Positions 8,040 through 19,026 of a stretch of 64,000 nt of DNA are shown here, in pieces; position 1 is the first letter of the stretch; each line of letters opens with the position of its first letter. The notes under the pieces are model-generated. The model did no database searches. It had not been told where the DNA came from and saw nothing but the letters and a program-made list of their open reading frames with translations. The translations under genes and the position numbers were made by a program. The stretch is taken from the NCBI RefSeq assembly GCF_018326305.1, contig NZ_AP023415.1, forward strand, positions 1,054,001 through 1,118,000, given 5' to 3'. This stretch comes from Vescimonas fastidiosa. GTDB lineage: Bacteria; Bacillota; Clostridia; Oscillospirales; Oscillospiraceae.

Positions 8040-10325
8040 TTAAAGCCTGCCCCGGTTCATTTGGATAAATTCCCGGTAGTCGCTGAATTTCATAGGCTTG
8101 GAGAAATAGTAGCCCTGGATGACATCGCAGCCCATTTCCTCCATCTGCCGGAAGGTCTCCGCGTCCTCCACACCCTCCTGGGTGATTTTCGGACTGAGCT
8201 TATGGGCCATATCGATAACACTTTGCAGGAGCAGCTTATCCCGGTCGGGATGGGGGCCGGAGGCCAGAAGCTCCTTGTCGATTTTAATTTCATCGAAGTC
8301 CAGGACCTTCAGGGCCGCAAAGGAGGAATAGCCCGTGCCGAAGTCGTCCAGGGAGCACAGGAAGCCCGCCTCGTGAAGCTCCCGCATGACCCCGGAGAGA
8401 TACTCGTAATTCTCGTAGGCAAAGCTCTCGGTAAACTCCACGGTGATGAACCGGTCCCGAATACCGAACTTCTGCTTAATGCGCTTATAGTACTCCAAAA
8501 AATCCGGCTGGATGGCCGTGACCCGGGACACATTCACGGAGAAGGGATAGATCGGCTCTCCCTTTTTGGCCGTGCTGGCCGCATTCTCGCAGGCCTTGTA
8601 AAACACGAAGCGGTCCAGGTTGTTGATAAAGCCGTTTTCCTCGAAAATAGGGAGGAATTCACCGGGGGTGCGGTAGCGGTCGATCTTGGTGTCGAACCAA
8701 CGAACCAAAATTTCGCTGCCGTCCATGCCGCCGCGCTTCAGGTTATATTTGGGCTGGTAGAAAATGTGGAACTCGTTGTTTTCAAAGGCCCGCTGCATAC
8801 GGCCCTCGATCTCGGCCTTCTTCAGGTAGTTATCCCGGAGGGTGTCCCCGTAGAACTCCAGAGAGACGGCACCGGTCTTGAAGGTGGGCTTGGCGTCCAC
8901 AATGTTGAGCTTGTCGATCATTTGACCCACGCTCCGGTCCTCCTCCCGGCCCACCTCGTAAATGCTGTAAGAAATGTGCAGCTTATACTCGTCGTCCTGG
9001 GGGAATTTATAGCGCACCACCTGCCTGTACAGGCCGTCCAGTCGGCTGGTCAGGGCCTTTTTCTCCCGGTAGTGGAGCAGGAGCAGATAGTGCCCGTCTC
9101 CAGCATAGGCAAAGGTCTCGGAGACCAGCATGGCCTGAGCGCAGCAGTTGCGCAGGAACCGCAGCACCGCCCGGTTCTGCCGGTCGCCGAACTGCTCGGA
9201 GATATAGCGGAAGTTGTTCACCCGGAGCATGACGATGGCAAATTGGGTCCCCTTGAGCCGATTCACGATGCTCTGGGCCTCCGCCTCGAAGCCGGAGCGG
9301 GTGAGGCAGTCCAGGTCTGCGTCCACGGTAGTGAGGGTCTTTATTTTTCGGTTCGTGCGGATGCGGTCCACAATGGCAAAGGCCAAAAAGCCCAGGAGCA
9401 TCAGGCTCAAAAAGGCCACGGTGCCCCAAATGGTATTGAGCACCTGGCGGCCGGAGCCGTAAAGCTCGGTCATCTCATATAGTCCCACCAGGATCAGCCC
9501 GCCGCAGCCGCTGCCCAGAGGGCGGACGGACAGGGCGTACTGCACCGACCCCACCTCCACCACAGCCGACTGCTGCTTCCCGGTGGATAGGGCGGTGGTG
9601 ATGCGGCTCATGGTGTCCCCGTCGGTGATGATCTGCTTAAACAGTCCCTCGGTCACGGAGCCAAAACCCGGGTCCACGGCGCTTCCCACCCGGATCTTTT
9701 CCAGGATGATGCCGTCGTGCTTGCACAGCAGCACAAATTCCGAAGCCTGGACGCTGCTGATATACTGGCCGCTCTCCTGAACCAGCGCCTCCAGGGAAAC
9801 CGCCGTGCGCATATACAGCAGCACCACCCCGTCCACATAGGCGGAATTGCAGGGGGCAAACACGCCGAAAACCATGTTGGCATTGTCATACTGGAACAGG
9901 CGGGAGACGGCGCTGCGTTTTGCTTCGGCCAGGTCCGTAAGCTCGCTGTAGCCGGTAACGCTGTCTCCGCCGGGGGTGTAGACCGCGCCATCCTTCGTGT
10001 AGAGTATGGCCACAAATTTGTCCCCGTCGGCCACGCGCATGCCGGAGCCCGTGCTGCGCAGCCGCTCCACCGCCCCCTCTAAGGACCCGGCCTCGCTGAC
10101 CTCTGAGGCGCAGTAATCCGCCCGCATTTTCAGGGCACCGAACTGCTCCTGCAGCTGTACCGCCTGCTCCCCGGCATAGTTTTCCGCCCGGTCCAGGGCC
10201 TGGCGGTCGATGCTCTGGAGATAGCCGCTGCTCACGGAAAACAGATGGATGAGGAAGGACATGCACAGGATCACAATGAGGGTAAAGATCGACGCCTTTC
10301 CGTATTTGGCCAGGAATTTATTCAT
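8040..10325 (-). CDS. Membrane GGDEF/EAL protein, probable c-di-GMP phosphodiesterase
   Basis: This 761-residue protein has an N-terminal membrane segment (13-33), an extracytoplasmic sensor-like region of about 260 residues, a second membrane segment near 300, a GGDEF domain and a C-terminal EAL domain. The GGDEF signature is degraded to AGDGH, so cyclase activity is unlikely. The EAL domain keeps its catalytic set: EILVRW in place of EALLRW, FSVNVS, VEFTES, LDDFGTGYSS, IKIDK, TQEGVED and IQGYYFSKP. It should therefore hydrolyse c-di-GMP, perhaps gated by the degenerate GGDEF domain and the outside sensor. It is the last gene of the riboswitch-led locus and overlaps the preceding peptidase gene by 8 bases. 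Confidence 0.9.
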   Translation of the reverse strand: MNKFLAKYGKASIFTLIVILCMSFLIHLFSVSSGYLQSIDRQALDRAENYAGEQAVQLQEQFGALKMRADYCASEVSEAGSLEGAVERLRSTGSGMRVADGDKFVAILYTKDGAVYTPGGDSVTGYSELTDLAEAKRSAVSRLFQYDNANMVFGVFAPCNSAYVDGVVLLYMRTAVSLEALVQESGQYISSVQASEFVLLCKHDGIILEKIRVGSAVDPGFGSVTEGLFKQIITDGDTMSRITTALSTGKQQSAVVEVGSVQYALSVRPLGSGCGGLILVGLYEMTELYGSGRQVLNTIWGTVAFLSLMLLGFLAFAIVDRIRTNRKIKTLTTVDADLDCLTRSGFEAEAQSIVNRLKGTQFAIVMLRVNNFRYISEQFGDRQNRAVLRFLRNCCAQAMLVSETFAYAGDGHYLLLLHYREKKALTSRLDGLYRQVVRYKFPQDDEYKLHISYSIYEVGREEDRSVGQMIDKLNIVDAKPTFKTGAVSLEFYGDTLRDNYLKKAEIEGRMQRAFENNEFHIFYQPKYNLKRGGMDGSEILVRWFDTKIDRYRTPGEFLPIFEENGFINNLDRFVFYKACENAASTAKKGEPIYPFSVNVSRVTAIQPDFLEYYKRIKQKFGIRDRFITVEFTESFAYENYEYLSGVMRELHEAGFLCSLDDFGTGYSSFAALKVLDFDEIKIDKELLASGPHPDRDKLLLQSVIDMAHKLSPKITQEGVEDAETFRQMEEMGCDVIQGYYFSKPMKFSDYREFIQMNRGRL

Positions 10326-10977
10326 CTGCCTCTCCTCCCTCCTCGTTTCCCCGGTTTTCCTCGGGGGTAAGTCCCTGCTCCTCCAGGCGGCGCACCTCCC
10401 GGGCCACCAGGCGATGGAATTCCTCTTCCGTCAGGGTGTCCTCGTCCTGCTCCTGCAGGGTCTTTACCACCGCGGGAATGAAAACAAATCCGCACACGGC
10501 GAAAAACAGGGCAAACACCAGCACCATGCCCATAGGCGTGGAAAAGAGCCTGCCCAGGGCCGTCATGAGGGGCAGGTTCTTCTCATACACGGCCACAATG
10601 TCCTCCGGCTGCACTGTCCAGGGATCCAGCAGGGACAGGGGGCTGTCCCCGCAGGTCTTATAGCCCTCCGGGGTTTGCTCGGTAATGCGGTGGGTGATGT
10701 AGCTGCCGTACACCGCAGAGCCCGTATCGCGGCAGACAAAGACGATTACATCCCCCACCTGCACCGCCTCTGCCGAGGTACTTTTGGCGAGAATGTAGCT
10801 CTTTTCCGGGATGGTAGGCTGCATACTGGCCGTTTCCACCCATAGGAGGGTACGGTCAAAGAGAAACAGAGTCTGTCCGCTTTTCTTTTGCAGGAAGAAA
10901 AGCAGCGAAGCCGCCACGATCAGCAGCAGAGCCCCGTAGAACAGGATCTGCGAGAGGATTTTCTTGCATTTGTCCAT
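10318..10977 (-). CDS. SipW-type (ER-type) signal peptidase, second of the locus
   Basis: This 219-residue membrane peptidase has an N-terminal transmembrane helix (9-29), the nucleophile motif ETASMQPTI with Ser51, a Ser-His type base in YITHRI (His96) and CGDSP with Asp111. The His instead of Lys marks the S26B/SipW class that processes TasA-like substrates. A second hydrophobic segment (about 135-160) and a long acidic C-terminal tail rich in Glu follow. Its ATG overlaps the stop of the preceding DUF2357-like gene as TAATG, so the two are translationally coupled. Its substrate could be one of the two TasA-like proteins of the locus. Confidence 0.85.
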   Translation of the reverse strand: MDKCKKILSQILFYGALLLIVAASLLFFLQKKSGQTLFLFDRTLLWVETASMQPTIPEKSYILAKSTSAEAVQVGDVIVFVCRDTGSAVYGSYITHRITEQTPEGYKTCGDSPLSLLDPWTVQPEDIVAVYEKNLPLMTALGRLFSTPMGMVLVFALFFAVCGFVFIPAVVKTLQEQDEDTLTEEEFHRLVAREVRRLEEQGLTPEENRGNEEGGEADE

Positions 10978-13466
10978 TATTCGTTATCCTTGTTGTCTTT
11001 TTTCCGGCGCAGGAGCCGGGCCAGAAAACCGGTCTTTTCCGCCGGAGGCGGGACAGGCTCCGGGTTTTCCCGGCTGTCGGCCAGGAAGCCGCCTACATCG
11101 TCCAGACCCTTTTGGGCCGGGCGGCTGTAATCCATGGCGGCGGGATACTGTATCGGCGGAAGCAGGTGCTCCTCCTCCCCGCTCTCCGTCTCCCTGTCGG
11201 CAGCGGACGCCGGTGCTGTGGCGGCGGGGCTGAAATAGTCGGCGGTATGGACCTGCTTCTCCGGGGTAGCCTGGGCATCCGTAAGCTCCTCCGGGGCCGG
11301 AATGGTCTCCCAGGCGCCGGGGGTCATCTCCTCCCCCTCCGGCTCCCCGCAGGTGACGATGGGTAAGATCTCCTCCCGGGCCGGGGTAGGCTTGGCAGGC
11401 TGGGCCCGCTCCGGCTTTTGGGCCGGGCGCACCAGGCCCCGGTCCAGCAGTTCCTCAAAGGGCAGCGGCTCATATTGGGCGGTGTCGAAGGTCTGCTCCG
11501 GCTCCGTTTTTTTCAGGTCAAATTTCTTTTCCAGGCGCTCTATCAGCTTCCGGGCCGCAGCAAGCTGGCCATCGGTTTTTATCCGCAGCAGAGTGGGTGT
11601 GGCGGCGTAGCGCTTCACGGCGGACACATCCGTCACCTTAAATGCCTTGGGCAGCTTCCCGGGCTCCAAAGCGATGTAGAGCAGGACCTCCCCCGCCTTA
11701 ATGGTAAGCCGGGCCAGCACCGTCTTGCCCAGGTAGAAGGCATAATTGGTGCGTCGAGGGATCATCTTCACGGTCTCGTAGCTGCGCAGGGCGTCCACCA
11801 GCTGGGCAAACCGGGCCTTGGCAGCTTCGTCCGCCAGGCGCAGACGGGCCTCCATATCCTTTTCCAAGCGAAGGTTGCTCTCCCGGGCGTCGTAGAACGC
11901 GGCAGCCTTCAGAGCCACCTGCACGGCAAAGGCCATGTCCCGGGGCTGCCGGGGCGCAGCGGGCTGCACCGCTGTAAAGTCCTCCGCCTCTACCGGGTCC
12001 GCCTCGTCCTCTACGGTGAGGGTAAGCCGGGCGTTCAGGGTAGGCGAGGTAGCCGAGGTGAGGATATTTTCCTCTGTCCGCTCGTCGCTGCTGCGGCAAA
12101 ACTCCAGATACTGGGCCGCCGCCGCGCCGAATAGCCCTCCCACATACTTCTGGTCCGGCTGCAGGATCGTCTCCTCCACCGTGAGGCCGCAGCCGCTCTC
12201 CTCGTAGCTTTGCAGGTAGGTCCACAGGTCCAGGCACTGGCGGAAATACTTGTTTTTCAGGATGGCATTGGTGCGCAGGATAGGGGGCTTCACATAATTG
12301 CGCCCCATCTCCCGAACGAAGTCCGACTCTATATAGGCCCGGGTGATGTCGTTAAGCTGCTCCACCCGCTTCCACAGACGAGAGCCGAAATAGCTTTTCT
12401 GCACGCCCTTGACATCGGTTATCTTCTCCGAGCGCTGGATGTTGATGGTCACCAGGGACTTGGCCTGGCCGTGGTAAAAGGAATCCGTGAAGCGGACGCT
12501 GCTGATGCGCTCGTCCACGCCGTTTTCCAGGGCAATGCGGTAGCGCTCGCTGACGAAGAAATAGAGGTTTGCCAGCAGCGTATTGAGGAACTTATTTTCA
12601 TAGGTGAGGATAGAATCCTCCCGGATGATATTGAGCATCTTGGAGGGGGTCACATCGTCGCCGTCCACGCTGGAGATAAAGTCCGTGTGCTGGCAGAGAT
12701 GGGCCACGGAGCGTCCGGTGATCTTCCGTGTCAGCTCCATGGGGCGAATCTCCTCCGTCTCGGCAATGAAGTGCGAGGGCCGACGCAGAAGCTCGTCGAT
12801 GGCGGGCAGGGCCTGCTCAATGCGCTCCACCCAGCCCTCGTCCAGGGCGCGGAGCATCTTCTTTTCGCTGAGCTTGATGGTCGCTTCTCCTGCAGAGAGG
12901 GCCGAGAGGACCTCCACGAACTCCCCCTCTTCGCCGCTGTATTTACCGGTGGGACGGATAAGGCCCCGGCGCAGCAGAGACTCGAAGCTGTCCCCGGGGA
13001 AGCTCTCCGGGGCAAAAACTGCCGCCGGGGCGTCCTTTTCCCGCAGATCCAGGGTGGCAGCCAGGTCGGTCCATTTTTTCAGGGCGTTTTTCAGTGCGCC
13101 CTCGCTTTTCAGCGGGAGCAGGGCGGGGGTTTTTTCAAACCGGCGCAGCTGGGACACATCCTGGGCCTTATACCGGGGGCCGGAGGCCGCCTCTGCGCTT
13201 TGGGCCAAAAGCAGGCACAGGCTGTCCTCAAAAAAAGCAAGGGCGGCTATACGCTTGCCGCCCGCCGTGAAATAGATGCCGGTCCAGGCTGTGCGGTAGC
13301 GCACGCCGCTGAAAGACAGCAGGGCGTTGGCCGCTGCCGCGCAGCTTTCCTTGACGCTCTCCTGGGAGAGCATCATCTGCGCGGAAAAGGACAGGCTGAA
13401 GCGGGCGCGAAGGGTGGGATCGGACAGAGCGCGGGTATTCTCTATTTCAAAAGCTGTGGTGGCCAT
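10977..13466 (-). CDS. DUF2357-like partner of the McrB-like AAA+ protein
   Basis: This 829-residue cytoplasmic-looking protein has a central region (about 230-480) resembling DUF2357, with TPSKMLNIIREDSILTYENK, the usual TPENR-like core found in partners of McrB-like ATPases. I see no clear PD-(D/E)xK nuclease motif. The N-terminus (about 20-190) and the segment around 540-720 are two copies of one domain (pattern TGIYFTAGGKRIAAL...YKAQDVSQLRRF versus FYLGKTVLARL...FKVTDVSAVKRYA) also found in other Clostridial proteins. The C-terminal 110 residues are Pro/Glu/Ala-rich and probably disordered. AGGAGGG precedes the ATG. It directly follows the AAA+ gene (20 bases). Function unknown; a structural or remodelling role is inferred. 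Confidence 0.7.
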   Translation of the reverse strand: MATTAFEIENTRALSDPTLRARFSLSFSAQMMLSQESVKESCAAAANALLSFSGVRYRTAWTGIYFTAGGKRIAALAFFEDSLCLLLAQSAEAASGPRYKAQDVSQLRRFEKTPALLPLKSEGALKNALKKWTDLAATLDLREKDAPAAVFAPESFPGDSFESLLRRGLIRPTGKYSGEEGEFVEVLSALSAGEATIKLSEKKMLRALDEGWVERIEQALPAIDELLRRPSHFIAETEEIRPMELTRKITGRSVAHLCQHTDFISSVDGDDVTPSKMLNIIREDSILTYENKFLNTLLANLYFFVSERYRIALENGVDERISSVRFTDSFYHGQAKSLVTINIQRSEKITDVKGVQKSYFGSRLWKRVEQLNDITRAYIESDFVREMGRNYVKPPILRTNAILKNKYFRQCLDLWTYLQSYEESGCGLTVEETILQPDQKYVGGLFGAAAAQYLEFCRSSDERTEENILTSATSPTLNARLTLTVEDEADPVEAEDFTAVQPAAPRQPRDMAFAVQVALKAAAFYDARESNLRLEKDMEARLRLADEAAKARFAQLVDALRSYETVKMIPRRTNYAFYLGKTVLARLTIKAGEVLLYIALEPGKLPKAFKVTDVSAVKRYAATPTLLRIKTDGQLAAARKLIERLEKKFDLKKTEPEQTFDTAQYEPLPFEELLDRGLVRPAQKPERAQPAKPTPAREEILPIVTCGEPEGEEMTPGAWETIPAPEELTDAQATPEKQVHTADYFSPAATAPASAADRETESGEEEHLLPPIQYPAAMDYSRPAQKGLDDVGGFLADSRENPEPVPPPAEKTGFLARLLRRKKDNKDNE

Positions 13467-13486
13467 ATCCGTCCCACCCTCCTATT

Positions 13487-15055
13487 TTAATACATTTTCT
13501 GCAGACGCTGCAGATACTCGATGCTCTCGGCCATAGCGCCGGGGCCGAAGAGGGAGTCCATCATAGCGATGAGCCCGCGAATTTCGCCCCGGATCAGGGA
13601 GAGGTTGAGGCTTTCAAACTTACGGAAAACCTTGGTAACAAAGATGTAGTCGATGGCCTCCGTCTCGGTGCCGCCGCAGGCGATGTAAACCGGCACGAAG
13701 TCCTTTAGCTGCTTCATAATACGGTTGCCGAAGGCAATGCGGAAATGCTGGATAACATACAGGTCCAGCTTTTCGATCTTGTCCAGAGCCTCCCGGCTCA
13801 CGGGGAAGTCCAGCTTGGCCTGCTCATACAGCCGCTCCACCTCGGAATAGGCGATCTTCTTGGCCGGGGTCTTGGGGGCCTCAAAGGGGATGCCCTTGCT
13901 GTCAAGGTTGATGACGAAGGCACGGTCATAGACCTTGTCGGAGACGGAGAAGGTGGAGTCATCGTTGTTGATGGTGCCGATGTACCAGACATTCTGGGGA
14001 ATTTGCAGGAATCCGTCCCGCAGATGGGCCGGGTCGTTCTCCCAGGAGGAGGGCACCAGCTCAATGCGCCACTCGTCGGGGTTGGGCATTTCCAGCACCG
14101 AGAGCATCTCGGCGAAGTAATACTCCACCCGGGAGATGTTCATTTCGTCCAGAATGACCAGGTTAATTTCGTCGTTGTACCCGGCCTCGTAGATTCGCCG
14201 CAGCACATCGGTCTCGTTGAATTTTTTTGTAAATTCATTAAAATAGCCGAACAGCTCGTTGCGGTCCCGCCAGGAGGGCTGCACGGAGGCGATGGTGGCG
14301 TCATTTTGGAAGTATTTGCCCATCATGTACGGCAGCGAGGTTTTACCGGTACCGGAGATACCCTGGAGGATCACCAGCTTCGTGCAGGCAAAGCCGGAGA
14401 GCATCAAGCGGATGGTGCGCTCATCGTAGTACAGGCCGTTGTTGGTGCAGGCGAAGTTGCGCATATCCTCGCAGATGTCCCGGAGGGTCATGCCCCGCTC
14501 ATAGACCGGGGGCGTGTAGTAAATATACTTCTCGTCCACGGCGGCCAGGCGGGTAAAGCGGGCGGCCGGGGCGGCGGGCAGGTTGGCCTGGGGCTGCTCC
14601 GAATCCTGCTCCTCGGCAGGCTCCTCGGTAGACTCCATAAGCTCCTTGAACTGGTCATAGGACAGTCCCGCCTGTGAGACCTTCAGCTGCATGATCCGCT
14701 CCTTTTCGGAGGTCAGGCGCAGGACATCCCGGTGCAGGTCGGCGATTTCCTCCAAAAGGTCCTCGTTTCCCACGATGCCGCGGCGGAAGCGGATGTACTT
14801 CCGCACGGCCAGCACGGCCAGGAAGATGACCCCCGCCCACACGGCCAGCACCAGCAGGAACGCCAGAATGGAGAATATCCAGTCGAACACGCCAAAGTTA
14901 GGTGCCTCGTCGGCCCAGATTTTGAAGTAATAGGGCAGGTTAAAAATCTTGATGATGCCCAGGACGATCCCCTTAACGACCATCAGGACGCCGCCCAGCA
15001 TATTGTCAAAAAAGGCCTTGAACCAGGTCAGAAAGCCGTATAAAAAGTCATGCAT
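13487..15055 (-). CDS. Membrane-anchored McrB-like AAA+ NTPase
   Basis: This 522-residue protein has two N-terminal hydrophobic segments (about 20-40 and 58-85), a coiled-coil/linker region (95-170) and a C-terminal AAA+ domain of the McrB/dynein-related type. Walker A is GISGTGKT at 232-239, Walker B is LVILDEMN at 299-306, and the later GTINNDD...VYDRAF resembles the McrB sensor segment. Classical McrB drives a restriction endonuclease; here it is anchored to the membrane, sits among export genes and has a DUF2357-like partner instead of a recognisable nuclease. I infer that it remodels or assembles something at the membrane. Confidence 0.8.
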   Translation of the reverse strand: MHDFLYGFLTWFKAFFDNMLGGVLMVVKGIVLGIIKIFNLPYYFKIWADEAPNFGVFDWIFSILAFLLVLAVWAGVIFLAVLAVRKYIRFRRGIVGNEDLLEEIADLHRDVLRLTSEKERIMQLKVSQAGLSYDQFKELMESTEEPAEEQDSEQPQANLPAAPAARFTRLAAVDEKYIYYTPPVYERGMTLRDICEDMRNFACTNNGLYYDERTIRLMLSGFACTKLVILQGISGTGKTSLPYMMGKYFQNDATIASVQPSWRDRNELFGYFNEFTKKFNETDVLRRIYEAGYNDEINLVILDEMNISRVEYYFAEMLSVLEMPNPDEWRIELVPSSWENDPAHLRDGFLQIPQNVWYIGTINNDDSTFSVSDKVYDRAFVINLDSKGIPFEAPKTPAKKIAYSEVERLYEQAKLDFPVSREALDKIEKLDLYVIQHFRIAFGNRIMKQLKDFVPVYIACGGTETEAIDYIFVTKVFRKFESLNLSLIRGEIRGLIAMMDSLFGPGAMAESIEYLQRLQKMY

Positions 15056-15135
15056 AGCAGATTTTCCTTACAATTTCAGTGCGGATTGGTGTGTATGTAG
15101 GGTCTTAACCCAGGAATGCGGTGTACCTCGGGGCG

Positions 15136-15876
15136 TTAAGACTTGATTTCCTCGTTATTGTTTTCCTTCTCCTGCTGCTTTTTCAGGTACTCCTCCACGG
15201 CCCTTTGGCGGATAAGCTCCTCATCGGCGGCGGAGATGACCTTCTTGCCGGAGTTCTTCACAGACATAAAGGCCATAACGAACTTCACAAGCTGATAGAT
15301 AAAGAACAGGATAAGCGGCAGCAGGATGCACACGCCGAAGCCCACCTGGGTGCTCAAGAAGTCCAGCACCTTGCCCAGGGCGGGAATCTTAGAGCCGGTG
15401 TACACGGCGATGATGGTGCCGCGGCTGACCTGGCCGCCGTCCACCAGGTCGTTGTTGTCGCCCTTGGTGGTAACAGAGACCAAGGTGCCGTTTTCGTTGC
15501 GCTCCACGGCCACGATACGGTGGGTGTTATAGTCCACGGTGTCAGAGCCGTCCAGCTTCATCTCGAAGGTGATGATGTCCCCCACCTCCAGGGCGTCAAG
15601 GGCGGCGTCGTCCTCGGCAATGTACTTGCTCAGGAGCATGGTGCCAGCGGAGAAGCCGGCGGGCTTGTCGGCAGGGACGCCGGCAGGCTTTTCCGCGTCC
15701 ATGGACTCGGTTTTCACATTCAGAAAGCAGGTGCTTCCCACGGTGGGGACATTTTTTGCGTTGGTGCCGGCGGAGACGGCCACAATGGACACGCCTACGC
15801 ACAAAACCACCAGCACCCAGATAAGCACATCCACCACGGTGCCGATGATTTTCTTTGTATTTTTCTTTTTTTCCAT
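15136..15876 (-). CDS. SipW-type signal peptidase, first of the locus
   Basis: This 246-residue peptidase has an N-terminal membrane helix (11-35), a catalytic Ser58 in VKTESMDA, His119 in NTHRIV and Asp140 in TKGDNND, the Ser/His/Asp set of SipW-type enzymes. A C-terminal membrane helix (about 178-200) and a charged Lys/Glu tail follow. Unusually, the loop just after the nucleophile carries an insert with a KPAGV/KPAGF repeat (63-74), where most homologues go directly to the substrate-binding strand. AAAGGAG lies 9 bases before the ATG. It immediately follows the TasA-like gene, the usual arrangement of enzyme and substrate. Confidence 0.88.
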   Translation of the reverse strand: MEKKKNTKKIIGTVVDVLIWVLVVLCVGVSIVAVSAGTNAKNVPTVGSTCFLNVKTESMDAEKPAGVPADKPAGFSAGTMLLSKYIAEDDAALDALEVGDIITFEMKLDGSDTVDYNTHRIVAVERNENGTLVSVTTKGDNNDLVDGGQVSRGTIIAVYTGSKIPALGKVLDFLSTQVGFGVCILLPLILFFIYQLVKFVMAFMSVKNSGKKVISAADEELIRQRAVEEYLKKQQEKENNNEEIKS

Positions 15877-15996
15877 TCCCGTTTAGCTCCTTTGTATGAT
15901 TTGAGGAGTGCGATGCTTGCTTTTGTAGGGTATTGCGGCTTCCCGCAGCAGGGCCGGGGCTTTGCCTGCAGCTCGGGTGCGGGAGATACGCCGGTC

Positions 15997-16073
15997 GGCG
16001 GGGTGATAGCGCCCCGCCCTACGGATGCATAGACAAAGGATGTGTAGGGCGGGCTGCCCCCAGCCCGCCGGGG
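15997..16073. repeat. Two GTAGGG-type palindromes between sipW and tasA-like genes
   Basis: A reverse-oriented copy (15997-16023, GGCGGGGTGATAGCGCCCCGCC then CTAC in outline) is followed by a forward copy from 16044 (GTAGGGCGGGCTGCCCCCAG, arms GGCGGGCTG/CAGCCCGCC). They occupy the 249-base gap inside the riboswitch-led locus, where they could act as a partial attenuator between the highly expressed fibre gene and its downstream genes. Confidence 0.7.
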
Positions 16074-16125
16074 CCGGGGATTTCCCCCCGCAGCGCCCCC
16101 CAGGGCGCCGCAGGGAGATTTATAA

Positions 16126-16854
16126 TTAGATACCCAGGTCGAAGGTCAGCTTAACCGTACCCTGGAGCTTATTCGCTGTAGCTGCTGCATTAAAATAGTC
16201 ACTGTTTACATTATCAGATGTACCGTCAATATATGTATAAACAGTAACTTTAACAGAAGTCGCAGAAGTCAGGGAAACAGTTGCCGTGCCCTGCGTAGTG
16301 GTGTCATTTAGCAGAATGGGCTCCTGTGCATCGCCGACAAACACAGCTGTAGAAATAGCAGCATCATCTCCGGCTGCCTTCTCAAAAGCAATGGAAAGGG
16401 TCTTATTACTGGCAGGTTCGGAGTCCTTTGAAAGAGTCAGCCAAAACTCGCTCTTCTGCATATAGTCTCCATTCCCGAGGGCAATCGTCTTTCTACCCAA
16501 TACCGCATCCGTCGCATGATTGCCGTTTTTATTATTTGCGGTATACCATGTCTTTGCGTCAATTTTATTGGTGTTGTCTGTGTCACTGGCGATTTCAGTT
16601 TCAGTATAGGCACAGGGGTAAACAGTTGCTGCAGCTGCATTAGTTTCCTTGGTAATTGCAGAAGTTTCCTTACTTGTGCTATTGTCCTTAGTATCAATCA
16701 GCAGATAAGTTGCATTGGACTTGGCAGTCACTTGCATGTTCGTGGCCGTAACAGTGGTGTTCATCGAAAACCACGCATAGGTGGAGGTTCCCACGAAGAG
16801 TGCCGAGACCAGCAGCATACACAGGGCGGGAATCAATTTTCTGAACTTTTTCAT
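16126..16854 (-). CDS. SipW-dependent TasA/camelysin-like exported protein
   Basis: This 242-residue secreted protein starts with a basic n-region and hydrophobic core (MKKFRKLIP, 8-22) followed by the SipW-substrate hallmark TSTYAWFSMNTTVTA (23-37); cleavage is expected near residues 25-30. The mature part is Thr/Asn/Ala-rich, without cysteine apart from the region around Cys80, and compatible with a beta-rich TasA-like fibre subunit. It is clearly more AT-rich and uses rarer codons than its neighbours, which suggests recent acquisition or diversifying selection. GAGGAAAA precedes the ATG. The next gene is the SipW peptidase expected to process it. Confidence 0.82.
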   Translation of the reverse strand: MKKFRKLIPALCMLLVSALFVGTSTYAWFSMNTTVTATNMQVTAKSNATYLLIDTKDNSTSKETSAITKETNAAAATVYPCAYTETEIASDTDNTNKIDAKTWYTANNKNGNHATDAVLGRKTIALGNGDYMQKSEFWLTLSKDSEPASNKTLSIAFEKAAGDDAAISTAVFVGDAQEPILLNDTTTQGTATVSLTSATSVKVTVYTYIDGTSDNVNSDYFNAAATANKLQGTVKLTFDLGI

Positions 16855-17232
16855 TTGTTTTTCCTCGCTTTTCTTTAGTTTTTGTATTTATCCAAACCGT
16901 CTCAGTACGAAGTCGGACGGTGAAGGAACGAAATAGTAAGGGGAAAGATAGCCTCCCTTGCCTAAAGGGAGAGAGACCCGCGGCGGGTTTCCGTGGGTCG
17001 CAAGGGGTACAGGTGGGACGGGAGCAGAAGGCGTGTCCCGCCCCACCGGGAAAAGAGGGTCTATTTTGAGGGGTCCCATAACTGCCGCAGCGGGGTCCCT
17101 CGCCGCGCTTTTGCGCGGGAATGGAAACGCATCGGACGCTATGGCGAAGGACCCCGTGAGCAGTTGGGGTAAGTTAGGGGTACGGCGGGGCGGGGCGTCG
17201 GGAACGCCGCCCCCTACGGGGGTGTGCGGGAG
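16855..17232. repeat. Non-coding 378-bp gap with palindromic repeats
   Basis: No plausible gene is present. It contains a CCTTGCCTAAAGGG-type hairpin (from about 16969), a GTGGGACGG/CCGCCCCAC pair around 17012-17048, and a reverse-oriented GTAGGGG-type palindrome near 17185-17222. I see no convincing sigma-A promoter for the downstream tasA-like gene, so transcription probably continues from the riboswitch promoter. Confidence 0.6.
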
Positions 17233-18006
17233 TTATTCCTCGGCCACCACATTCATAACCATGTCCACCTTGAACTCGCCGCCCAGGATGTCGTCGGTGC
17301 AGTCGGGGTCGTTGCCCTCGATCCAGATGACCACGGTTATTTTGGATATATCCCCGGGCTTAAAGCCCGCCACCCGGCCCTGGGCCACAGAGCCGCTGGC
17401 GGCGAAATTGGTCATGGTGCGGTTATCCGGGTCCACCTCCGGCAGGCCGCTGCCCCCGGTGCGGGGCTTGGCATAGTCGGTATAGTCGCCGCTGCGGGTA
17501 TATTCCTTGGTGAAGCTGTCGTAGTAAAAGGGTGTATAGTACAGGCGCACGCGAATGGCCGAGTCCACGCCGATGGTCTTGCGGGAGATGACCAGGTCAT
17601 AGTCATAGGTAATGGTGCTCTGGCCCACATTCTTGGCGTAGAAGGTGTAGGCCACATAGTTTTCCCCGTTGTGCTCGCCGTCCACATCGTTGAGGTCGGC
17701 GGGAAGAGAGTTGCCGTCGATGTTGGTAACATCCTTCACGGCCTTAGAATTGAGATAAGATACGGGGTTGAGAAATTTATCCGATTCGCAGAGGGTGAGG
17801 TAATATTTGCGGTCGGTGAGGTTATTGATCTTCACCGTAAAGCTGCCGTACTTGGTGAACAGAATGGAGATGATGTACACGATGATAAGCACCAGGGTAA
17901 TGAGCCCCAGCACCGGCGGCACGATCTTCTTATACAGACGGTAGCGCTTGACCTCCTCCGCCGACCGGGTCAGCACGGACCCGGGCTGTTTAGTTGAAAC
18001 CGGCAA
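17233..18006 (-). CDS. Membrane-anchored TasA/camelysin-like protein
   Basis: This 257-residue protein has a positively charged N-terminus, one transmembrane helix (about 28-50) and an extracytoplasmic domain. The conserved features are YTFYAKNVG, IRVRLYYTP, and GDISKITVVIWIEGNDPDC near the C-terminus, a segment typical of SipW-associated proteins. It may anchor or initiate the fibre made from the following TasA-like subunit. The start is a TTG at 18006 with GGAAAGGAG about 11 bases upstream; GTG at 17976 is the alternative. It overlaps the preceding EAL-like gene by 17 bases. Confidence 0.7.
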   Translation of the reverse strand: MPVSTKQPGSVLTRSAEEVKRYRLYKKIVPPVLGLITLVLIIVYIISILFTKYGSFTVKINNLTDRKYYLTLCESDKFLNPVSYLNSKAVKDVTNIDGNSLPADLNDVDGEHNGENYVAYTFYAKNVGQSTITYDYDLVISRKTIGVDSAIRVRLYYTPFYYDSFTKEYTRSGDYTDYAKPRTGGSGLPEVDPDNRTMTNFAASGSVAQGRVAGFKPGDISKITVVIWIEGNDPDCTDDILGGEFKVDMVMNVVAEE

Positions 18007-18790
18007 GGGATGCCACGCTCCTTTCCGATAAAAGGTCTGTCAGTTCTTTTTCCATATACAGGCTCCGGCCCTCCGTCCGCAGGCCCGGGGCCGGGGTATA
18101 ATATGCGCACTGGGCCTCATTGAGCCCCCGCAAAACCGTCTCCGCAGGCACCCCCACAGCCAGGGTCTGAATGCCCAAGGCTCCGGCGAATTGTATATAG
18201 GCCGCCATGCCCGCAGGAAAGTCGCCCTTACGGTCCCGCTCCAGCAGCAGCAGATCCGGGGCCGCCAGGGGCAGTACGGACATGGGAAAATCCGCCCGGC
18301 CAAAGCCCTCCACGGCCACCTTGCAGCCCAGAGAGCGAATATGCAGCAGGGCGCTTTGCAGGTCCTTGGGCGGCAGGCGCAGCAGCTCCGGAGCGAAGGA
18401 CAGGCACACCGCCTCGGCGCACTTGGGGTCCGCCGCGCGTAAAAGCCGTGTCACCTCTGCCGCCAGGGTCCCGCGCCTCACCAGAGACACGGGACACGAG
18501 AGCAGAAATAGGGAGATGCCGCGGGCCTGCGATTGCAGGGCGGGCAGAGCGCCCAACACCACCCGCAAATTGCGCGCGGTGAAGGAGGAGGCGCTCTCCC
18601 GGTCGTCCTCCAGCGCAGGCATATAGTCCCCGGGATCAAGGGTTCCATAGTCCACACTGTTGACCAAGGCCCGGCTGCGCAGGCCCGCGACATTGGAGAA
18701 GAGGCAGTCGTAAATGGGCGTGCATTTCAGCTCAATGGGCCGCACGCCGCTGTCGATGGTACGGGTAACGGAAATATTCAGCTTGTCCAT
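17990..18790 (-). CDS. Degenerate EAL-domain protein
   Basis: This 266-residue soluble protein keeps the EAL-fold order (VCLSFAPELL, SALLHIRSLGCKVAVEGFG, PDLLLLERDRKG) but has lost the catalytic residues: the DDFGTG loop is replaced by VEGFGRA and the ExxxR/ExL glutamate is absent. It is therefore probably a c-di-GMP-binding or purely structural protein, not an enzyme. The ATG at 18790 is chosen because GGAGG lies 6 bases upstream; the frame extends further to 18835 but that stretch belongs to the riboswitch terminator. It is the first gene of the locus and the direct target of the riboswitch. Confidence 0.72.
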   Translation of the reverse strand: MDKLNISVTRTIDSGVRPIELKCTPIYDCLFSNVAGLRSRALVNSVDYGTLDPGDYMPALEDDRESASSFTARNLRVVLGALPALQSQARGISLFLLSCPVSLVRRGTLAAEVTRLLRAADPKCAEAVCLSFAPELLRLPPKDLQSALLHIRSLGCKVAVEGFGRADFPMSVLPLAAPDLLLLERDRKGDFPAGMAAYIQFAGALGIQTLAVGVPAETVLRGLNEAQCAYYTPAPGLRTEGRSLYMEKELTDLLSERSVASLAGFN

Positions 18791-18812
18791 CCCGCACCTC
18801 CATACCATCCGA

Positions 18813-18932
18813 AAAAAAATAAACCCCGGTTGCAATCTCTGAAAATTGCAACCGGGCTGACTTAGATGAGCAATAAGTCCCCTTGGCTTTGCGTCACTGT
18901 CTCACGGCAGTTTTGCCAAACGATCTTAACTT
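18813..18932 (-). promoter_or_regulatory. c-di-GMP-I (GEMM) riboswitch with terminator
   Basis: On the minus strand the leader contains the class I signature: GGCAAA (18912-18917), a stem ACTG/CAGT capped by a GUGA tetraloop (18902-18905), GACGCAAAGCC (18885-18895), a GACTTA/TAAGTC stem (18874-18879/18859-18864) and AGCCCGG (18852-18858). The last element is also the 5' arm of a strong terminator, CCCGGTTGCAA (18846-18856) with TTGCAACCGGG (18825-18835), followed by TTTATTTTTTTT. Aptamer and terminator are therefore mutually exclusive, which predicts that c-di-GMP binding allows read-through (an ON switch). It controls the 18.8-8.0 kb locus. Confidence 0.87.
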
Positions 18933-18939
18933 CAGGATA

Positions 18940-18968
18940 AAAGTACCATAATCGTCCCCTTCTGTCAA
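18940..18968 (-). promoter_or_regulatory. Promoter of the c-di-GMP-controlled locus
   Basis: A perfect TTGACA (18963-18968), a 17-base spacer and TACTTT (18940-18945) place the transcription start near 18933, immediately before the riboswitch aptamer. Confidence 0.8.
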
Positions 18969-19026
18969 GTATTTTTTTTCGGTTTTTTAACGCCCCTCCC
19001 CCAGCCCCTCCCCCGACAGGGAAACA

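Follow-up and report, generated by a model that had tools for sequence, protein, structure and literature searches.

A c-di-GMP-I riboswitch-headed locus of Vescimonas fastidiosa joins SipW-type peptidases to a membrane-anchored McrBC-like pair, a probable builder of a surface fibre or matrix

In a 64,000-nucleotide (nt) stretch of Vescimonas fastidiosa contig NZ_AP023415.1 (the window, in which the coordinates below are counted), eight minus-strand open reading frames (ORFs) and an upstream cyclic di-GMP (c-di-GMP)-I riboswitch form a locus of about 11 kb (region 8040-18970; ORF list and family profiles). The locus combines signal peptidases, exported proteins and c-di-GMP proteins with a membrane-anchored AAA+ protein and its DUF2357 partner. 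We consider it probable that the locus builds a surface protein fibre or matrix under c-di-GMP control and that it brings an engine of its own, derived from McrBC and bound to the membrane. All eight genes of the first-pass annotation, as well as the riboswitch, were recovered in the ORF list, by profile searches and by Rfam. From the riboswitch downstream, the features are:

18844..18927, minus strand: c-di-GMP-I riboswitch aptamer (Rfam RF01051, 51.8 bits, threshold 35; model positions 1-87)
18825..18856, minus strand: intrinsic terminator (14-pair stem, -21.5 kcal/mol; 13 nt shared with the Rfam match)
17990..18835, minus strand: degenerate EAL protein, EALdeg (PF00563, 4.4e-10)
17233..18006, minus strand: TasA1, membrane-anchored exported protein (alignment of 12 sequences)
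16126..16854, minus strand: TasA2, exported subunit with an STYAWFS signal peptide (predicted TasA/pilus-like beta-sandwich)
15136..15876, minus strand: SipW1, endoplasmic reticulum (ER)-type Ser-His signal peptidase with a cytosolic tail (NF046067, 1.4e-18; TIGR02228, 53.9 bits)
13487..15055, minus strand: membrane-anchored McrB-like AAA+ protein of the NxD type (invariant motifs; McrB profile match)
10977..13466, minus strand: DUF2357 protein resembling McrC, with two YdhG-like domains and lacking a nuclease domain
10318..10977, minus strand: SipW2, second ER-type signal peptidase (TIGR02228, 53.3 bits)
8040..10325, minus strand: membrane GGDEF/EAL protein (PF00563, 4.2e-57; residues aligned to 5m3c)

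The arrangement of the core was found to be conserved. Related loci (numbered L) were gathered by the AAA+ protein alone (41 loci), and an AAA+ alignment served to search 197 genomes of the order; the scored set comprised 54 loci after duplicates (L073, L076, L077, L078 and L096) were dropped, and the loci of the V. fastidiosa genome itself and those with a shorter or distant AAA+ (L090-L095, L097-L125) were also left out of scoring. Denominators vary, since only loci with enough flanking sequence were counted (at least 6 kb upstream for counts out of 29). In 45/46 loci, SipW is encoded no more than 1.5 kb upstream of the AAA+ gene, the miss (L005) being a 3.2-kb contig; downstream of the AAA+ gene, a DUF2357 gene is present in 47/47 loci and a SipW gene in 40/40. 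The possibility that the pair occurs mostly away from sipW, raised in the first-pass annotation, is thus not borne out for its full membrane form. The order SipW-AAA+-DUF2357-SipW is constant, whereas c-di-GMP components and exported proteins vary: EAL or degenerate EAL proteins were found upstream in 12/29 loci, TasA1 in 18/29 and TasA2-profile proteins in 21/29, and a GGDEF/EAL gene was found downstream in 20/31. We refer to loci with GGDEF/EAL or EALdeg as clade I and to the others as the deep branch; this split is our own, and the deep branch retains the core pair while c-di-GMP proteins are mostly absent. A chance neighbourhood was ruled out by the conserved order and by genome-wide counts. 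The 2.5-Mb genome totals two c-di-GMP-I riboswitches, three EAL, two GGDEF and four TIGR02228 matches (two of the latter below cut-off), of which one riboswitch, two EAL, one degenerate GGDEF and two SipW-type matches fall in the locus.

Across the order, 23/197 genomes matched the AAA+ alignment, 18 with the full membrane form (one split over two contigs) and five with a shorter AAA+ (one of them also with the full form); one match was distant. A TIGR02228 match (E <= 0.001) was present in 18/18 genomes with the membrane AAA+ vs 108/179 others, related genomes not being independent in this or any other comparison from the order census. The distribution is patchy, with 1/15 genomes of the V. 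fastidiosa family matching. A search of the phylum gave matches in 51/398 genomes; the whole profile was covered only in V. fastidiosa itself, and the other matches were partial, at 5e-39 to 5e-23. The shorter AAA+ marks a sister branch in five genomes of the order, one of which (G103) has the full locus elsewhere; no SipW match was found in the sister-branch regions from four of the five. Three sister loci (L090:2533-11141, L091:9062-15143 and L092:1-7005) carry a membrane AAA+ and no SipW match, L090 and L092 together with a DUF2357 gene and a second AAA+. In L090 and L091, the membrane AAA+ has a large membrane protein beside it that contains a transglutaminase core, and these neighbours again point to the cell surface.

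The AAA+ protein, described at first pass as membrane-bound and McrB-like, matched the McrB model at 3.1e-6 and the McrB structure 6hz4 by profile at 3.7e-5. Its motifs GISGTGKTS, LDEMN and NxDD are invariant in 22 aligned sequences. In these, N363-x-D365-D366 reads as an NxD motif followed by D; as the second D also fits NxxD, the NxD reading rests on the alignment context. The N-terminus is a hydrophobic and transmembrane (TM) segment throughout the alignment (judged by eye) and has no domain match; one TM segment lies near residues 62-85, a charged stretch follows, and FtsB was not among the PDB profile matches. The partner matched the DUF2357 family at 9.9e-4 (18.8 bits, under the cut-off of 23.3). 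Its AlphaFold2 model shows two mutually homologous YdhG-like domains and the DUF2357 domain, all confidently modelled, and no long coiled coil. A first Foldseek run of this model against structures gave no match at E <= 0.001, while a second look ranked McrC first; the predicted fold is McrC-like with a stalk hairpin. A PD-(D/E)xK nuclease domain is absent from this McrC homologue, in which just one D/E-x-K pair reaches 70% conservation, and this pair lies inside DUF2357. Escherichia coli McrBC (6hz4, 6ut6) likewise has an AAA+ core with Walker A and B motifs and a DUF2357 fold with a stalk hairpin, but in the pair described here NxD replaces NxxD, a membrane segment stands in place of the DNA-binding domain and the endonuclease domain is missing.

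The ancestry of the pair from McrB and McrC could mean that it is an anti-phage module resembling type IV restriction, residing in the export locus or guarding the membrane. The PADLOC candidate-defence model PDC-M26A matches the AAA+ protein (13487-15055) at 1.5e-36, so that automatic pipelines may file the locus as defence, and relatives of the NxD clade are predicted defence systems according to PMC11090510. However, the PADLOC match is best over residues 205-324, the AAA domain. The family scans, which covered the eight proteins of the window, matched no nuclease family there (a separate nuclease gene may exist beside some of the other loci), the AAA+ protein has a membrane anchor, and SipW genes flank the pair in nearly all loci. 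We therefore regard an anti-phage role as very unlikely. A plain defence island was ruled out by the missing nuclease domain together with SipW on both sides.

A family close to this pair has been named before. The 2024 CoCoNuT paper in eLife (PMC11090510) introduces CoCoPALM systems as NxD McrBC-like pairs that carry an FtsB-like membrane part and are accompanied by signal peptidases, presumed there to act in pilus assembly, and defers them to a later paper. As defined there, the NxD motif is usually followed by D or E, the GTPase is fused to an FtsB-like domain (TM segment plus coiled coil), and coiled coils in McrC are usual but not obligatory. CoCoPALM and the present locus share an NxD McrB-like GTPase, an N-terminal membrane region, a McrC/DUF2357 partner and signal peptidases; among the defining traits, we found the NxD motif, the association with signal peptidases and the DUF2357 McrC homologue. 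The main text of PMC11090510, by contrast, never mentions c-di-GMP, riboswitch, GGDEF, TasA, SipW or camelysin. In the open-access literature, the term CoCoPALM was found only in this paper and its preprint, besides unrelated palm and smoke papers, and among the matches listed there no report joined the pair to a c-di-GMP layer, TasA-like subunits, giant proteins or a second operon. The earlier statement that no such system has been described therefore has to be narrowed: the McrBC-like pair with signal peptidases already has a name, and it is the combination of c-di-GMP, SipW and McrBC that was not found described among the matches listed.

Both peptidases stood up as SipW type in the protein-level profile search (TIGR02228 cut-off, 51.85 bits; scores of 53.9 and 53.3), although SipW1 reached only 50.0 bits, slightly under the cut-off, in a six-frame search of the genome. 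Peptidase_S26 (Pfam) matched only SipW2, at 7.8e-5. S58 and H119 are invariant in 23 SipW1 sequences and align with SEC11A, whose profile matches SipW1 at 1.1e-18; the catalytic pair is thus Ser/His and not Ser/Lys. A cytosolic tail motif was seen in 25/48 AAA+-linked SipW1 proteins, in 1/44 SipW2 and in 0/32 control SipW proteins; as it was written after the tails had been viewed, it is a lead only. Tails of the ADEELIKQRAIEEYL kind recur in L021, L040 and other AAA+-linked SipW1 proteins. The V. fastidiosa genome holds a third SipW-type peptidase (L129, C1:102889-110438), which lies among exported proteins of the GATFAWFTDTA type; no AAA+ or DUF2357 protein was matched in that stretch.

The two small exported proteins had been called TasA/camelysin-like. 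By sequence, membership in the TasA family was ruled out: neither protein has a meaningful match in Pfam, NCBIfam or the PDB, the same holds for a set of 12 TasA2 sequences, and the TasA/camelysin match (PF12389) is absent from all of these. What remains of the label comes from the form of the signal peptide, one predicted fold and a relative: the six top structure matches of the TasA2 model are fibre or tube subunits, the TasA fibre 8aur included, and the related locus L037 encodes a camelysin above the Pfam cut-off and has a SipW-cognate signal peptide above the NCBIfam cut-off. TasA1 has an N-terminal TM segment and showed no SipW-type cleavage site, which makes it a candidate fibre base; the sequences in the alignment of 12 are 38-52% identical to the window protein. 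Bacillus subtilis TapA-SipW-TasA (PMC9674648, PMC10151520) is a known case of donor-strand assembly. That system resembles the present one in its SipW-type peptidase and in its beta-sandwich subunit (predicted here), and differs in that two SipW genes occur here and the window subunits lack a TasA sequence match. It also has a signal peptide of the same YAWF type, and it is not known to include an McrBC-like pair or a c-di-GMP riboswitch.

The product may be something other than a fibre. In loci without TasA1 and TasA2, giant genes of the YAWF type (our own text pattern, sought in the first three ORFs in the riboswitch comparison below) often lie upstream of SipW1 (L024, L025, L028, L033, L040, L074, L075 and L085), and L079 has one as well; L017 and L021 also have a giant ORF upstream, but its start falls beyond the available sequence. 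A giant gene is also the last gene in the second riboswitch operon of V. fastidiosa. These genes would fit a coat or single adhesins, made chiefly of giant exported proteins of up to 3,252 residues, to which the small subunits would be accessory. Against this stand the loci with EALdeg, TasA1 and TasA2, where no giant gene lies between the riboswitch and SipW1 except in L079, and the predicted TasA2 model with fibre subunits at the head of its structure list. On balance, we find the coat or adhesin product unlikely and prefer the fibre. In L022, which is closely related and has the complete core together with GGDEF/EAL, no riboswitch, no TasA1 or TasA2 and no gene of the YAWF type, giant or otherwise, was seen upstream; any exported substrate of this locus would be encoded elsewhere.

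Control by c-di-GMP was claimed for the locus, and it is supported for part of the family. The riboswitch precedes EALdeg in 11/11 such loci (the window, L002, L003, L006, L009, L010, L011, L014, L015, L029 and L079), and a second operon of the genome is headed by another one; however, the layer is not universal, as the GGDEF/EAL counts above also show. Riboswitches were found in 12/41 loci and in 4/13 further ones, many sequences stopping short of the operon start; none was found in L022, L025, nine deep-branch loci or L035, L080 and L083, which have a small upstream EAL gene. In the order census, 9/9 clade I genomes carried a c-di-GMP-I riboswitch vs 49/188 others. In 19/20 riboswitches tested, an intrinsic terminator follows that shares 6 nt or more of its 5′ arm with the Rfam match, and in 13 it shares 8 nt or more; the lone exception is L010, where a simpler scan does show a terminator. 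With the 6-nt overlap of six riboswitches, only the unpaired end of the model is touched, but a long overlap makes aptamer and terminator mutually exclusive and predicts an ON switch. The window riboswitch, whose terminator 5′ arm is part of the aptamer 3′ end, is accordingly predicted to be of this kind. More than one aptamer precedes the locus in L015 (tandem pair, L015:4930-5135), in L074 (L074:19368-19991) and, from a reading of the sequence only, in L010 (a second aptamer-like sequence before 4780).

EALdeg matches EAL structures by profile, and the catalytic motifs were not seen in an alignment of 11 sequences; it is predicted to be a noncatalytic c-di-GMP receptor. The GGDEF domain of the last protein scored 6e-5 (23.3 bits, just below the cut-off of 23.8) and is degenerate, whereas its EAL motifs are complete in the alignment to 5m3c, so this protein is likely a c-di-GMP phosphodiesterase. 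Large membrane HD-domain proteins (HD_5), possibly another c-di-GMP enzyme, are encoded on the opposite strand beside two loci (L006:11520-14498 and L009:17308-20286). With EALdeg and the phosphodiesterase in the same locus, the AAA+/DUF2357 pair might instead be a regulator, a nucleotide- and c-di-GMP-dependent gate on SipW processing or secretion that does no mechanical work. The recurrent SipW1 tail could serve as its docking site, and stalk-triggered activation of the McrC kind resembles a switch. But the deep branch keeps the core pair though its c-di-GMP proteins are mostly absent, and the AAA+ motifs are invariant in the 22 aligned sequences. We judge a purely regulatory pair unlikely.

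The other c-di-GMP-I riboswitch of the V. fastidiosa genome (C1:699581-699661) is followed by genes of 270, 232, 310 and 3,252 amino acids (C1:687323-699661; L128, L132). N-terminal export signals were recognized by eye in all four proteins, two of them of the FSWF/VAWF type. The 3,252-amino-acid giant matches, at 1e-30, a giant gene that lies directly upstream of SipW1-AAA+ in L017; the 270- and 310-amino-acid proteins had no match in L017. In seven other clade I genomes, 11 riboswitches lie apart from the AAA+ locus, and six of them have a YAWF-type gene in the first three ORFs; the remaining five comprise three at contig ends and two before ordinary secreted proteins. L142 (EALdeg, TasA1, TasA2) may be the severed front of its own AAA+ locus, in which case the count is 5/10 and not 6/11. 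The control, 0/17 riboswitches with YAWF-type genes in AAA+-negative genomes, was hand-picked, one riboswitch per genome (ten near the top of the list, G195 and G052 being skipped, and seven others), and some of its stretches are short. The YAWF genes behind riboswitches elsewhere, together with the L017 match, suggest that the two operons belong to one regulon. G019 (L154) has three consecutive riboswitches, behind which lie SipW, two ORFs that make up an EALdeg-like gene, with TasA1, and genes of the SipW-YAWF-giant kind. Here and in L142, L134, L135, L138 and L141, the labels EALdeg, TasA1 and trio were assigned by eye from N-termini.

The favoured course of events for a c-di-GMP-switched fibre builder would be as follows. 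At high c-di-GMP, the terminator would lose its 5′ arm to the aptamer, and the locus would be transcribed. YAWF-type beta-sandwich subunits would be exported unfolded and cut by SipW1 or SipW2, and the cleavage would release an N-terminal strand, which could then serve in donor-strand assembly of the TasA kind, with uncut TasA1 as the base. The AAA+ ring, seated on the membrane by its N-terminal helix, would be entered by the McrC-like stalk of the DUF2357 protein, triggering nucleotide hydrolysis. The ring may then act on the complex of SipW and subunit, perhaps via the cytosolic tails of SipW, and not on DNA, aiding assembly as an ATPase or GTPase of MoxR-like function; this likeness to MoxR-type AAA+ assembly ATPases is a presumed functional analogy of nucleotide-driven partner assembly, as the present AAA+ belongs to the McrB sequence family. 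EALdeg would sense c-di-GMP, and the GGDEF/EAL enzyme would lower it again. A fuller version, in which an McrBC engine stripped of its nuclease and DNA-binding parts became the membrane assembly machine of a donor-strand fibre and forms one c-di-GMP-I ON-switch regulon with the second operon, is plausible but tentative. Clostridioides adhesion genes likewise stand behind a c-di-GMP riboswitch; the surface proteins there are different ones, and they are not known to be accompanied by an McrBC-like pair.

Neither TasA-type nor chaperone-usher fibres are known to need a source of energy on the cytoplasmic side for their assembly. A conserved membrane AAA+ of McrBC descent that works with SipW would break this rule, and among TasA-type fibre systems this one would be the first to have a cytoplasmic motor of its own. 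It would also be a defence engine turned construction engine, the branch targeted by the candidate-defence model really serving cell-surface assembly, and a warning that McrBC-like matches are not always defence. It would also provide a concrete c-di-GMP output, with a riboswitch readout testable in vitro, for Clostridia and Bacilli of the rumen and gut, most of which are uncultured.

Concerning the layout of the locus, overlaps or short gaps between the genes, as first described, apply to most of them (SipW2 and GGDEF/EAL overlap), but the gaps of 378 bases between TasA2 and TasA1 and of 249 bases before SipW1 are not short. Scans inside the locus gave 8 promoters vs 4.2 (standard deviation [SD], 2.1) in shuffled sequence and 16 terminators vs 12.7 (SD, 3.6), values near shuffle level and thus uninformative on transcription within the locus. 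The gap between the exported genes (16885-17232) contains pieces of short interspersed repeats, for which the genome has at least 27 further matches. An ORF of 80 to 90 residues with a KRxRSQAA-like stretch lies between SipW2 and GGDEF/EAL in L004 (6226-6468), L011 (13641-13913) and L019 (7526-7768); the window has none. Gut-1 RNA matches were seen in L074 (three around the AAA+ gene; 8908-9153, 11185-11264) and in L029 (585-660).

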